DNA of 34,955 nucleotides from Candidatus Parcubacteria bacterium (GTDB lineage Bacteria; Patescibacteriota; Saccharimonadia; Saccharimonadales; 2-12-FULL-41-12). Positions 26,183-31,965 of this stretch are shown here, one piece after another. How positions within the stretch are numbered: the first letter of the stretch is position 1; the number at the start of each line of letters is the position of its first letter. The stretch spans positions 1-34,955 of the forward strand of contig JAHWKM010000013.1 in assembly GCA_019347895.1 (NCBI GenBank), read 5' to 3'. Under the pieces are notes generated by a model, which did no database searches, had not been told where the DNA came from, and saw nothing but the letters and a program-made list of their open reading frames with translations. Made by a program: the position numbers and the translations under genes.

Positions 26183-29100
26183 ATGAAACGAATATTTAAA
26201 AATAAATTTATGCTGGCCGGGGTTCTTGCATTTAGCCTTAGTTTTTCGTACATACAATTTATAGATGCTCCCGTAGTTAAAGCGGGTTATCAAGATGAGG
26301 CTAGGGCCGCTTATAATTTAATGCCAAACAGGCTTCCAAGCGGCCAGTACCGACTTCTTAAAAATTCTGATAATTCATTCGCCAGTACTGAGTACTGTCG
26401 AACTAACCCGGACTCATGTTATGCCAGCGCACCGTATGATAGTGCGGCGGGCAGCACTAACCACCAGTATATGACCGTGGCTGGAACCGACAATATTAAC
26501 GATTTGGGTGGCGGACAATCTTCTTCGGCATATAAATATGCTTACGTTGCCGTCTATGCCGGGGATAAAGCTGATAAGGATCTGTCCTTTATTTTTGTGG
26601 ATCGTCGTCGCAATCTAGATTGTGAGACAGCATTAAAGCTAACATATTTTACCAATAGCCCTACGGAAGCCGGTGCCCAAACAGCCTATGTTAGAAATCC
26701 TTCGGGCAGTTGCGGAACTAGCGTTATACCCACTAACCAACTTGGAACCCCCAGACCATTCCCGCAGGCCAAACTCGCGCCTTTAAGCTACAAAGACCAG
26801 AGCGGGCTGGATCAATGGACGGGACTTTATAAGGGCTATGTTAAGATTGAACTAGCTGAGAATTTTGTTTCTCAAGCTAGCTTTACCGTGGGAGCCCCGA
26901 ACGGCGGCAGGCTTGGGTATAAGGCTGATTCATGGCTTAACATGTACCCGACGGCTATAGCCGATCGACATACTATGATTTTTCGATGGCGTCCTCCGTG
27001 CAATGCCACAGAAAATACTGATATATATTTTGATGATGGCGATGAAGGCACATCCGCACAGCCCAATAATGCCCTGTTAAGAGTAATAGAACAAATTCCA
27101 AGTTCATCTAATCCAGAAAATCCAGCGGCATCTTCGAACAGGACTGAAGTAGCCCGCAGGGAAAATGTTACCTCCGCGTTTTTTTCTATCTCGAATACTG
27201 GCGGCCGGTCTTACAGTGCTGAATTCAGTAATATAAACGGTGGTAATGGCATAGGTTTTACATTTCCCTATGATAGCGGGGATTTTTATATTCCCTGTCC
27301 GCCGCCACCGCCACCACCAGGCGCGGATGCTGCTGATTGCAATACCTATCGGAAAAACTTGGTAAGGGATGGTAACCTGGGAGCGGCCTTTTATAGGTTC
27401 ACCGTTTATTCTGGAAACGCCGGCACTGAATACAGGGCTTCAGGGCCGGCAAACGGGTCGCGGAGAAGTACGGATTCAGGCAGAACCGGCTGGGCAACCT
27501 ATAACCAGGCGCCGGTTTATCAAACCGGGTGGTGGAACAACGGTTACAAAGATGTGCCAGACTCGATTCAAAACAGTGCTAACGAAAGAGAAATAAAGGT
27601 AGGCCAAGCAGGCTCCGACAGCTTAAGCAGCTATAGTCCAGGCGCTAACCCTTATGATCATAATATTAACTTTCCGGAGCCGATGGGTCCGGACTGGGTA
27701 GTTTATCTGGAAAAATGGGACCATAGCGCCGACAGAAATAATAACGGTTCGGCTGAGTGGGAATACCGTTATGTCAAATACACCTATGCCGACTGCTACC
27801 AAGCAGCTTGCGATGTGTTAGTTCAAAACAGTAGTGGTCTGCCTGCCAATAGTGTCAAAGGCGGGCAAGTTTACGACACTGCTATTCGTATCTATAACAC
27901 CGGCCGGGATACCTTGCCCGTCACTAGCAGGGGTGCCGGGCTCTCCGGTACAGTGCCACCCGGTAACAGCTGGCCTGCCGGTCCACGTTATGCTTCGGCT
28001 GGTATAGGGCCGCCGACTGACAGAGCCAATCCGGCAACCTGGCCGTACGTCGACATACCTATGCCGAAGCAGACTGCACCGGCTAGCGTTACTACTTTTA
28101 ACTTGAGTGCTTATCCTGATTATTATGGCTTATTTGTCCTAGGGCCCAATTGTTCGAAAGCTGTAAATGTTTATATGCAGTTTAACATTACCCCTATTGC
28201 TTACATTAATAGTGGCGGGATGGACAGTGAAGATCCTCGTGAAATTACCTACACTACTGGCGGTAATAACACCGGCTGGACGGTAACGGTCGATAAATGG
28301 AACGGGAAATTGATAAGAAAGCGTGCCGGTACAGTAGATACCACGCTGAAAACAACCTATGACGGTCCATATAGTTTTGAGAATGTATCTGAGACAAGAA
28401 CTTATGGCTCATCATCGGTGCCACTAGTACCTGGTACCCTCCAGCCCGGCGACAAAGTTTGTGCCTATTCATATATAACCCCTACCGACGGTTGGGTTGG
28501 TCCGGGGGGTGATAAACGTCTGACATCAACAAAAGGTCCGCCTCAAAACCCGGCTGAAGATCCTTGCGAAACCATCTACGACAGGCCGTACCTGCGGACT
28601 TACGGGGCGGATGTGATGGCTGGCGGCGGTTTCGCCTCAGGCGGAGTCTGTAATAGCAGTGGTTCTTCGGGCATCTTTGGTTACAGGTCTACCCAGTCTG
28701 ACCGCGGGGGATCTGGAGCGCAGTTTGCGGCCTTGGCTTTAGGATCGATTGACGGCTTTATGACAGCTAGCTTACGCACATCTGTTCCAAAAGAGCCTAA
28801 CGGCCTGACTATCGCCAATACACCTTCGCTTGGTGGCTACAACGGAGCGATTTGCGCTACTGACTTCTTCAATGAAAAAAAATATGAAGTAGGCCAGAAT
28901 CGAAAAAATTCACCTGCTACATCACTTGAGATAAAAAACAATAACCTGGAAAATGAAAAGCAAACTGTATTCAATGACGGGGGTGGTATCTCCGGATTTG
29001 AATTAACAATAAATGAGAATGGAAGCACTACTTTTAATAACCGGCACACCGTATTTGTAGACGGAGACGTGGTAATAAAAAATAATATAAAACTTAAAGA

Positions 29101-29566
29101 TGATTTTGACGACCCGCTGCTAGCGCCGGCCTTCGCGCTGGTTGTCCGCGGCAACATATATATACAAGGCAATGTAGATCGACTTGACGGGATGTATGTC
29201 GCCCAAAAAAGGCTTAATGACACCGGCGGTACAATTTTCACTTGCTCAAACGACGATACTCCGTATGACCCTAATGGCCCCAGCGATGCGGCTATGCTTG
29301 CTGCTTGCTCAAAACAGTTGAAGGTCAACGGCATGTTTGTAGCCGACACTGTTAAATTACTGCGAACTATTTACTCCCTGCGCGATTCGTTCATAGACGA
29401 GCGCAGCGCAACGCCTTGCACCCCGTCCGTGCGTAATAAATTGAATTCGTGCGCCGCCGAAGTATTCAACTTCATCCCCGAGATTTTCTTATCACCGCCG
29501 CCTTTCTATGAAGCACCGCCAAAACCGTCCCTTGATTCATACGAAACCTTGCCGCCAATTCTGTAG
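26183..29566 (+). CDS. Very large secreted surface protein of the pilus locus (1127 aa)
   Basis: Signal peptide at 1-34 (basic MKRIFKNKF, hydrophobic LAGVLAFSLSFSYI, cleavage after VKA). The mature protein is Tyr/Asn/Gly/Ser-rich and beta-type with many Cys, split by a PPPPPPPG hinge near residue 375. The middle part (about 540-830) resembles repeated beta-sandwich domains with lone-spaced Cys. Residues about 950-1010 (TVFVDGDVVIKNNIKLKDDF, FALVVRGNIYIQGNVDRLDG) look like a short beta-solenoid, as seen at the ends of CPR pilus-associated proteins. It ends in a Pro-rich PPPFYEAPPKPSLDSYETLP tail. No sortase motif. It is probably an adhesin or pilus-tip/surface component, by position before pilMNO and by architecture; no named family is claimed. 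Confidence 0.75.
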   Translation: MKRIFKNKFMLAGVLAFSLSFSYIQFIDAPVVKAGYQDEARAAYNLMPNRLPSGQYRLLKNSDNSFASTEYCRTNPDSCYASAPYDSAAGSTNHQYMTVAGTDNINDLGGGQSSSAYKYAYVAVYAGDKADKDLSFIFVDRRRNLDCETALKLTYFTNSPTEAGAQTAYVRNPSGSCGTSVIPTNQLGTPRPFPQAKLAPLSYKDQSGLDQWTGLYKGYVKIELAENFVSQASFTVGAPNGGRLGYKADSWLNMYPTAIADRHTMIFRWRPPCNATENTDIYFDDGDEGTSAQPNNALLRVIEQIPSSSNPENPAASSNRTEVARRENVTSAFFSISNTGGRSYSAEFSNINGGNGIGFTFPYDSGDFYIPCPPPPPPPGADAADCNTYRKNLVRDGNLGAAFYRFTVYSGNAGTEYRASGPANGSRRSTDSGRTGWATYNQAPVYQTGWWNNGYKDVPDSIQNSANEREIKVGQAGSDSLSSYSPGANPYDHNINFPEPMGPDWVVYLEKWDHSADRNNNGSAEWEYRYVKYTYADCYQAACDVLVQNSSGLPANSVKGGQVYDTAIRIYNTGRDTLPVTSRGAGLSGTVPPGNSWPAGPRYASAGIGPPTDRANPATWPYVDIPMPKQTAPASVTTFNLSAYPDYYGLFVLGPNCSKAVNVYMQFNITPIAYINSGGMDSEDPREITYTTGGNNTGWTVTVDKWNGKLIRKRAGTVDTTLKTTYDGPYSFENVSETRTYGSSSVPLVPGTLQPGDKVCAYSYITPTDGWVGPGGDKRLTSTKGPPQNPAEDPCETIYDRPYLRTYGADVMAGGGFASGGVCNSSGSSGIFGYRSTQSDRGGSGAQFAALALGSIDGFMTASLRTSVPKEPNGLTIANTPSLGGYNGAICATDFFNEKKYEVGQNRKNSPATSLEIKNNNLENEKQTVFNDGGGISGFELTINENGSTTFNNRHTVFVDGDVVIKNNIKLKDDFDDPLLAPAFALVVRGNIYIQGNVDRLDGMYVAQKRLNDTGGTIFTCSNDDTPYDPNGPSDAAMLAACSKQLKVNGMFVADTVKLLRTIYSLRDSFIDERSATPCTPSVRNKLNSCAAEVFNFIPEIFLSPPPFYEAPPKPSLDSYETLPPIL

Positions 29567-29975: not shown

Positions 29976-31016
29976 ATGAGTTTACTGAGTGGGGTATCTG
30001 AATTTTTTGGTCTGGACATCGGCACAACCGCCGTGCGCGTGGTGCAGTTAGCCAACAGCCCCAACAATAAGCAATTGCTTCGCTACGGCATGACCCAAGT
30101 AAATGAAAAGGCAGCTGCCAGCGATTCTAAGGCTGACCAGCAAAAACTAGTTCAAGCTATCGCGGAAATAATTTCCAAAACCGGCATTAGAACTAAAAAT
30201 GTGGCCGTCGGTTTGTCTTCATCGAGGGTTTTTACGACAGTTATAGATATCGAAAGGCTGTCGCCGGCCGAGCTGGAAAAAACAATTCATTATCAAGCCG
30301 ACTCCATAATACCTACGGATCCGAAAGATTCGAAGATTGACTGGGCGGTGATAGGCGACTCTCCGGTTGCCGCTAACAAGGTAGAGGTGTTAATTAGCAG
30401 CGTACCGAACAGCTTCGCTGAATCGCGGCTGGATCTTTTGGAGGGGACCGGACTTAATGTGATTTCTTTTGAACCGGACAATTTGGCGCTGGTTAGAGCC
30501 ATGATTCCGCCCGGCACAACCGCGCCGCATATGGTTGTCGATATAGGCAATAAAAGTACTGACATCGTCATAACTATGAACGGGGCGCCGCGGCTAACCA
30601 GGTCAATTCCCACCGGTTCGGAAGCAATTATCCGCTCTGCTACCCAAAACTTAAATATCGAGCCCCAGCAGGCCGAAGAGTTTGTATTTAAGTTTGGCTT
30701 AAGCCAGCAAAAACTGGAAGGCCAAGTTCACCATGCCATTATTACTACCATAGACCTTTTGACTACGGATATAGCTAAATCTATAAAATTTTTCGAAAGC
30801 CGTTACCAAAACGCCAAGCTGGAAAGAATGATAATGACGGGCGCCGCCTCGGCCTTGCCGGAATTTCCGCTGTATTTAGCTAATAAATTCGGCGTTGAAG
30901 TAGAGATTGGAAATTCCTGGAATGGCGTGAGGTATGATCCCGGACGGCAAAATGAGCTACTGAGCGTTTCAAATTATTTCGGCGTTGCAGTGGGCTTAGC
31001 GGAGAGGAACGAATGA
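29976..31016 (+). CDS. pilM: Type IV pilus inner-membrane platform protein PilM
   Basis: Cytoplasmic actin-like ATP-binding protein that docks onto the N-terminal tail of PilN. 346 residues. Actin-fold marks: phosphate-1 FFGLDIGTTAVRVVQL (10-25), HMVVDIGNKSTDIVI (phosphate-2), and MIMTGAASALPEFPLYLANK (adenosine). The segment IHYQADSIIPTDPKDSKIDW is characteristic of PilM. First gene of pilM-N-O; the stop overlaps the ATG of a 48-codon frame (ATGA). Confidence 0.95.
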   Translation: MSLLSGVSEFFGLDIGTTAVRVVQLANSPNNKQLLRYGMTQVNEKAAASDSKADQQKLVQAIAEIISKTGIRTKNVAVGLSSSRVFTTVIDIERLSPAELEKTIHYQADSIIPTDPKDSKIDWAVIGDSPVAANKVEVLISSVPNSFAESRLDLLEGTGLNVISFEPDNLALVRAMIPPGTTAPHMVVDIGNKSTDIVITMNGAPRLTRSIPTGSEAIIRSATQNLNIEPQQAEEFVFKFGLSQQKLEGQVHHAIITTIDLLTTDIAKSIKFFESRYQNAKLERMIMTGAASALPEFPLYLANKFGVEVEIGNSWNGVRYDPGRQNELLSVSNYFGVAVGLAERNE

Positions 31017-31159
31017 AAATAACTCCACAGACGGCACATTTCGCCGATTTTCTTGCGATACTCGCTCACCGTACCAGTGAGTACGGCTTCGCTTGCGTTT
31101 CTCAGAATAATCAACGAACTGCACTCGCCTGTGAAATTATTTCGGAGGTAAATCGATGA
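31013..31159 (+). CDS. 48-aa reading frame across the pilM-pilN hairpin, coupled at both ends
   Basis: The ATG overlaps the pilM stop (ATGA) and the TGA overlaps the pilN ATG (ATGA), so the frame fills the whole spacer. The peptide starts MKITPQTAHFADFLAILAHR, has SEYGFACVS at the hairpin apex and ends TALACEIISEVNR. It contains the pilN ribosome binding site (GGAGG) near its 3' end. The hairpin's TP-QT start and ALxCE end resemble the mutM-holA element. It may serve as a translated spacer that keeps ribosomes on the message; no function as a protein is evident. Confidence 0.55.
   Translation: MKITPQTAHFADFLAILAHRTSEYGFACVSQNNQRTALACEIISEVNR
31026..31133. repeat. 108-bp imperfect inverted repeat (pilM-pilN spacer)
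   Basis: Outer CACAG (31026-31030) and CTGTG (31129-31133), apex CCGTAC (31069-31074) with GTACGG (31081-31086), and arms of about 50 bases that align with mismatches throughout. Its GCACTCGCCTGTGAA end parallels GCACTCAAGTGCGAA of the other copies. Confidence 0.7.
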
Positions 31160-31965
31160 TTCAGCTTAACTTACTGCCCGATGTAAAGTTGCAATATATA
31201 AGAGCGCGCCAACGCAAGCGCATGGTGATGAGCGTTTCATTCATCGCCTCGGCGTTCTTTATAGCTATCTTTTTGATTTTATTTATGTATGTTCGTATCG
31301 CTCAGCCCGAACATCTTAAAAACCTCAATAACGACATAGTTAAGACTAACGACGAGTTAAAAGCCAAACAAGACCTGAGCAAAATTTTAACTATTCAAAA
31401 TCAACTGAATAGCTTGCCGGCTTTACACGAAAAAAAGGTAATAAGCTCCAGGCTGTTTGATTACCTTACCCAGCTAACGCCAATCCAGGCGACGATTTCT
31501 GACGTAAATGTGGATTTTAGTGAAAATAAGCTAACGATTAAAGGTAACGCCGACGAGCTTAGCACGGTAAATAAATTTGCCGATACCTTAAAATTTACCG
31601 GCTACCTCAGCAATGATGAAGAGGAATCATCCAGGGGGCAGTGCGAGCTTGGTCTATTCGAGGGTCGTAAATCGGATTCTTCGCCCCAAAACCCCGAGGC
31701 TGTTGTCTGCCGGGCGTTCGGAGAGGTAGTTTTAACTGAGTTTACGATAGCGACACAAGAAGCTGTCACAGATAAAAAGCCTATTTCATACGATCTAACC
31801 TTTAAATTCGATCCAAAGATCTTCGCCAACATCAAGCCCGCAGAGGACCAAAGCGCCATAATACTTGAAGTACCAAAAATTATCAGCACCCGATCCATTA
31901 CCGAAAAACCTGCCGTTTTATTCAAACCCCAGCCGGAAGTGATTGAGGAAGGAGGCCGGCCATAA
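31156..31965 (+). CDS. pilN: Type IV pilus assembly protein PilN
   Basis: Bitopic inner-membrane protein linking PilM to PilO. 269 residues. The conserved cytoplasmic start IQLNLLPDVKLQYIRARQRK carries the INLLP-type motif that binds PilM; one membrane helix at 25-46 follows, then a coiled coil (HLKNLNNDIVKTNDELKAKQ) and the periplasmic-side ferredoxin-like domain (SDVNVDFSENKLTIKGNADE). GGAGG lies 7 nt before the ATG. It overlaps pilO by one base (TAATG). Confidence 0.92.
   Translation: MIQLNLLPDVKLQYIRARQRKRMVMSVSFIASAFFIAIFLILFMYVRIAQPEHLKNLNNDIVKTNDELKAKQDLSKILTIQNQLNSLPALHEKKVISSRLFDYLTQLTPIQATISDVNVDFSENKLTIKGNADELSTVNKFADTLKFTGYLSNDEEESSRGQCELGLFEGRKSDSSPQNPEAVVCRAFGEVVLTEFTIATQEAVTDKKPISYDLTFKFDPKIFANIKPAEDQSAIILEVPKIISTRSITEKPAVLFKPQPEVIEEGGRP

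Follow-up and report, generated by a model that had tools for sequence, protein, structure and literature searches.

The pilM and pilN genes are joined by an open, self-complementary spacer

The window, that is the whole stretch of DNA analyzed here, is a 34,955-nt contig of a Saccharibacteria genome (labeled G000). It carries pilM and pilN on the forward strand, separated by a spacer of 139 nt.

29976-31016, + strand: pilM, upstream gene, 346 aa (ORF; Pfam PilM_2, PF11104, E=4.4e-36)
31001-31007, + strand: SD-like GGAGAGG within the last codons of pilM, 5 nt upstream of the linker ATG (sequence)
31013-31159, + strand: linker ORF, 48 codons, ATGA overlap at both ends, without Pfam match
31017-31142, no strand: imperfect palindrome (self-complementary stretch), from self reverse-complement alignment
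31144-31148, + strand: SD GGAGG inside the linker ORF, 7 nt before the pilN ATG (sequence)
31156-31965, + strand: pilN, downstream gene, 269 aa (PF05137, E=1.7e-4; position and homologues)

The match of pilN to PF05137 (22.0 bits) falls just under the cut-off of 22.8; judged by position and homologues, its identity is clear. The conserved PilM C-terminus GLAERNE encodes the SD-like GGAGAGG. Since the GLAER codons give GAGAGG just before the junction, the start signal of pilN is built into pilM. Upstream of pilM, positions 26183-29566 encode a protein of 1127 aa whose N-terminus carries a hydrophobic signal and which has no Pfam match.

The start codon of the linker overlaps the pilM TGA as ATGA (31013-31016) and its stop codon TGA overlaps the pilN ATG as ATGA (31156-31159). 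An initial annotation of this DNA had described the 48-codon frame with ATGA at both junctions, and the sequence and the ORF list confirm it. The same bases had been described as an imperfect hairpin. Here, the self-complementarity stands: positions 31017-31142 reach a self reverse-complement score of 40 against 15.1 ± 3.3 for dinucleotide shuffles (0 of 300 as high), with indels and mismatches breaking up the palindrome. RNA stability does not, as the fold of the linker (z = -0.55) is no more stable than that of shuffles, and we rejected an RNA hairpin as the functional unit. The palindrome is decayed, and the term ‘hairpin’ fits its ancestry rather than its present RNA stability. A search of the operon against Rfam gave no match up to E=1.

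Taken by itself, a coupled frame at the window spacer has a chance of ~0.13 under a loose definition or 0.06 under a tight one, at random phase. The open frame at this single locus is not significant; the weight comes from relatives and from other copies of the element. A reading by chance would hold that a palindromic insertion happened to stay open, that its ATGA ends arose by insertion into, or duplication of, an ATGA junction, and that pilN uses its own SD. The single-locus values, the unremarkable fold and the GGAGG that precedes pilN all agree with it.

The spacer is an insertion relative to related genomes

In the closest relative (G001, same genus, PilM 84% identical) pilM and pilN are adjacent as TAAATG without a spacer. 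Four other members of the family have 2-6 nt from the last PilM codon to the pilN start, stop codon included. Among 139 junctions compared order-wide by paired coordinates, all from MAGs, 67 are ATGA overlaps and 131 lie within 16 nt. By this comparison the window spacer is an insertion. The exactness of both ends had been considered striking. The exact ATGA ends are real. No coincidence has to be assumed for them, however, as pilM-pilN junctions across the order most often take the form ATGA, a point that also favors the chance reading.

No clear target-site duplication is visible when the flanks of the window copy are compared with the empty G001 junction, and such a duplication as the origin of both ATGA ends is not demonstrable from the empty sites. 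For family f35 (95 genomes with both genes matched) coordinates were compared by eye and all apparent gaps >20 nt were read. None of these gaps is a spacer: in each, PilM or PilN is extended at a terminus and the codons overlap. Family f31 yielded no new long pilM-pilN spacer.

Long pilM-pilN spacers keep a joining frame

Nine long spacers were available for comparison: G035 (40 nt), G096 (70 nt), G077 (123 nt), G083 (133 nt), G000 (139 nt), G124 (142 nt), G110 (184 nt), G106 (210 nt) and G026 (415 nt). Their sequences are mostly unrelated to each other. Nevertheless, in eight of the nine a single ORF of 14-140 codons bridges from the pilM stop to the pilN start. It begins as ATGA or TAATG at the pilM stop and ends at the pilN start as ATGA, GTGA, TGATG or an 8-nt overlap. 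The G106 spacer has two overlapping ORFs in place of a single bridging one. The initial annotation had proposed to compare the frame across Saccharibacteria. In these spacers length and sequence vary while the joining frame is kept, spacers of unconstrained frame did not appear, and most relatives have no spacer.

With the discovery case G000 left out, seven of eight spacers bridge (P = 9e-9 loose, 5e-14 tight; dinucleotide shuffles, random phase), values that treat spacers as independent and belong to statistics designed in part after the first relatives had been seen. Five of the spacers (G077, G083, G106, G110, G124) come from one family, f37, and are probably not independent insertions, so that perhaps five events were sampled. 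One f37 spacer together with G096, G035 and G026 still gives P of the order of 1e-6 or less, and the 415-nt spacer of G026 alone ~2e-4.

For spacers in general, 15 of 136 are bridged against 7.2 ± 2.5 expected (co-directional, 40-450 nt; 474 kb in 23 stretches), and the 15 include the window spacer and two small genes that appear genuine. A genome-wide preference for bridging ORFs across all spacers is therefore weak at most and was set aside. Compared with these general spacers, the pilM-pilN junction (7/8, window left out) differs at P = 2e-6. At a second junction, pilN-pilO of G113, a palindrome-bearing spacer of 183 nt is a coupled ORF of 60 codons that is absent in the sister G083.

Alternatively, the linkers might be true small proteins that work together with PilM and PilN. 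Their frames are open and lie in the right place, and two f37 linkers begin MTTSF while a third begins MTASL. Yet the peptides (14-140 aa) are unrelated between species and align without an invariant column, the same-genus linkers of G110 and G124 differ by a net 42 nt (14 codons) with many gaps, the window linker has no Pfam match, and at 131 of 139 junctions a linker would not fit. We regard small proteins as very improbable. The view of the initial annotation, that the spacer is a linker frame with an incidental peptide, gains support from a frame that is kept while spacer length and sequence vary.

Several spacers carry repeats of their own. The f37 linkers (L044, L045, L046, L048) contain simple TTCACC/GGTAAATGG repeats and that of G083 repeats of the AATTCC/TAAATTC type; by sequence, both look like further low-complexity palindromic spacer families. 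The spacer of G026 (L049, G026:C8:57600-58600) holds two unrelated inverted repeats, one with ends TATAGCCCCCGCAAAACAAATTC, within its single 140-codon frame.

The window palindrome belongs to a dispersed element family

A 61-position model (R1) was built from four copies and its matches were counted at E <= 1. Two matches lie in the window.

31048-31108, + strand: element core in the linker, 64.9 bits, best of 35 matches in G000 (this copy helped to build R1)
793-852, + strand: second copy, 29.5 bits, in a 188-nt spacer between an Fpg-like gene and the next gene, without a coupled ORF

R1 has 35 matches in G000, 21, 25, 16 and 14 in four of the five family members and one weak match in the fifth. 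The window palindrome is one of about 30 copies in G000, and the relatives of this copy have diverged. Outside the family, a stretch of G037 has two strong matches and most stretches of other families have none. The full consensus measures ~155-165 bp with terminal inverted repeats AACCTACGCAC / GTGCGTAGGTT. RNAalifold on 77 aligned matches gives a central GTAC stem with both-sided changes in 7 of 10 pairs, which is supportive only, as the alignment was fitted to R1. In a first classification of 74 copies, 43 fell between co-directional genes and 21 within ORFs.

Element copies form bridging frames between genes

Under strict criteria, 11 bridging ORFs turned up among 41 co-directional spacers that carry a copy (0.8 expected). 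Among co-directional spacers of 100-260 nt, bridging occurs in 18 of 32 with the element (~1.5 expected) but in only 2 of 20 without it (Fisher P = 0.001, in a scan that allows uncertain starts on heuristic gene calls); about 14 of the 32 do not bridge. Further copies add N-terminal sequence to the gene that follows, such as a HAD hydrolase gene downstream of argS. Together with the seven of eight other long pilM-pilN spacers (P ~1e-8), the 18 of 32 speak against the chance reading, which is largely refuted as a general account and appears improbable to us for the window.

An alternative is that bridging is built into the element. A coding palindrome with its own start, SD and stop would insert at start codons in the manner of MIRUs, and no selection at pilM-pilN would be needed. 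Many copies in one orientation do encode a similar peptide of ~57 aa (the linkers share ALELKxxFLFEKWxKPYxxYG..., then SD, stop and next start) that ends in ..GGCGGTGCGTAG before the next start, and 63% of element strands are open in divergent or convergent spacers. The pilM-pilN copy, however, has the opposite orientation and a frame unlike the conserved peptide, and the unrelated pilM-pilN spacers of other families bridge too. Moreover, in spacers of <=260 nt the frame is open over 130 nt more often in sense (28/32) than in antisense (15/32; P = 0.001), a difference that suggests selection on translation in addition to whatever openness is built into the repeat. We consider the built-in explanation possible, though doubtful.

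Copies at atpG-atpD-like junctions (G001, G005) have the same orientation as the pilM-pilN copy. Upstream of an ATP synthase beta-like gene, copies occupy the same junction in two genera (L117 and L132, around 1501), and both are bridged by ORFs of 49-51 codons with ATGA starts.

Element copies are inserted in frame within enzymes

In-frame copies were found in glmS, ugd, dnaG, the aminopeptidase N gene, tsaD, the genes for 3-methyladenine glycosylase and family-4 uracil-DNA glycosylase, and an ogt-like gene.

L140:3-1817, - strand: glmS, insert-bearing ORF
L151:707-2200, - strand: ugd, insert-bearing ORF
L139:162-1871, + strand: dnaG, insert-bearing ORF
L186:1-2061, - strand: aminopeptidase N, insert-bearing ORF
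L164:852-2078, + strand: tsaD, insert-bearing ORF
L146:207-968, + strand: 3-methyladenine glycosylase, insert-bearing ORF
L182:1407-2141, - strand: family-4 uracil-DNA glycosylase, insert-bearing ORF

Alignment with solved homologues (PDB) delimits three of the inserts: in GlmS 65 residues correspond to 7 in the reference (query 59-125, chain 59-67), in TsaD 60 to 5 (211-272, 199-205) and in Ugd 74 to 5 (189-264, 202-208). In other enzymes the family match is split or truncated at the insert. The peptides that the inserts encode are hydrophilic, and in most cases the same element strand is read.

The linker may act as a ribosome relay

We consider it probable that a dispersed palindromic element inserted at pilM-pilN and persists there as a translated ribosome relay. 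A copy would have entered the tightly coupled junction after the split from the closest sequenced relative and persisted in a form with an open sense strand. Ribosomes ending pilM would re-initiate at the ATGA at 31013, using the pilM-internal SD that formerly served pilN. They would read through the palindrome, terminate at the ATGA at 31156 and re-initiate on pilN, aided by the new SD GGAGG. The peptide would probably be irrelevant, the frame being what is kept, and the bridging ORF would restore the -4 spacing at both ends. From these comparisons we infer that the linker is translated, that termination-reinitiation takes place on it and that the driving force is selection for PilM:PilN coupling. 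Given the good SD within the linker, pilN might also initiate independently.

In E. coli and Haloferax (H. volcanii), reinitiation needs an overlap or a very short distance and nearly vanishes at ~20-40 nt (PMC10666635); reinitiation at overlaps and short distances is also covered in a review (PMC12548453). An untranslated spacer of 139 nt would thus be expected to uncouple pilN. Coupled gene pairs are enriched among subunits of complexes (PMC10666635).

The initial annotation had suggested that the linker keeps ribosomes on the message. In one version of this role, translation of the spacer would prevent Rho-dependent polarity; in bacteria that possess Rho, an untranslated spacer of such size can trigger it. 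Against this, no Rho scored above the curated cut-off in 31 relatives of the order, where only ATP-synthase-like paralogues were found and the controls scored, and bridging is absent from most of the remaining spacers of these genomes. Protection from Rho is thus an unlikely reason, and we give it hardly any weight. Under the ribosome relay, delivery of ribosomes to pilN in a fixed ratio to pilM would be the likelier reason.

The data suggest that these Saccharibacteria accept such repeats at sites where translation can run on through them. In a stronger form, on which we are evenly divided, the element family would be mobile and retained only where it is translatable, as in-frame inserts in core enzymes or as ribosome-relay ORFs that maintain termination-reinitiation between genes of an operon, and strongly coupled junctions such as pilM-pilN would convert any insert, related or not, into a relay. 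If the relay is real, pilM-pilN represents a natural experiment on translational coupling, with several insertions of 40-415 nt at one junction, nearly every survivor of which keeps a frame handing ribosomes from pilM to pilN. It would become testable whether coupling without Rho is maintained for subunit balance. It would also caution annotators that a short ORF lying between coupled genes may serve as a bridge for ribosomes and not encode a protein.

Relation to known repeats

The best reading is a family that resembles Rickettsia palindromes, persists where it can be translated and works as a MIRU-like ribosome relay at pilM-pilN. Rickettsia palindromic elements (RPEs) are dispersed palindromes of ~150 bp inserted in frame in unrelated enzyme genes (reviewed in PMC10969869). 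The likeness to RPEs suggested by the initial annotation was borne out by the in-frame inserts of the same repeat family within enzymes. The window family is likewise palindromic and multicopy, similar in length, and found in frame inside glmS, tsaD, ugd and others. The host phylum differs, and the likeness is one of structure and insertion behavior. About half of the Saccharibacteria copies lie between co-directional genes, many of them bridging, which PMC10969869 does not describe for RPEs. We found no published Saccharibacteria palindrome of this kind in open-licence papers.

MIRUs are mycobacterial repeats inserted at start codons, with an ORF coupled to the downstream gene at -4 nt (reviewed in PMC12548453). 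Similarly, the ORF of the window element couples an upstream stop with a downstream start, with ATGA at both ends, as copies do in 18 of 32 spacers. In contrast to MIRUs, the element is palindromic with terminal inverted repeats, bridges in both orientations and also occurs inside genes, and at pilM-pilN unrelated sequences bridge in other families. It appears to work like a MIRU but not to be a member of the mycobacterial MIRU sequence family. Coding palindromes, known in Rickettsia, would thereby extend to ultra-small episymbiotic bacteria and be linked with MIRU-like relays in one element family.

MITEs are short, have terminal inverted repeats and many copies, and contain no transposase gene. 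The element shares its shortness, copy number, terminal inverted repeats and lack of a transposase gene with them; the window copy has no clear target-site duplication. REP/BIME elements, as defined in PMC3733652, are 20-40 bp palindromes tagged GTAG/CGTC with a RAYT transposase, a definition that the element, at ~155-165 bp, does not fit. The small ORF mgtQ between mgtC and mgtB of Salmonella promotes translation of the downstream gene (PMC8092293). It is likewise a small intergenic ORF but acts as a Mg-responsive, translation-aborting regulator, and nothing suggests a sensor at pilM-pilN.

Before a ribosomal protein L27-like gene, element copies occur in two families (L094:951-1328 in G037; L125, around 1501, in G003). 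In G037, a further copy lies in frame inside the Obg-like gene upstream of the L27-like gene.
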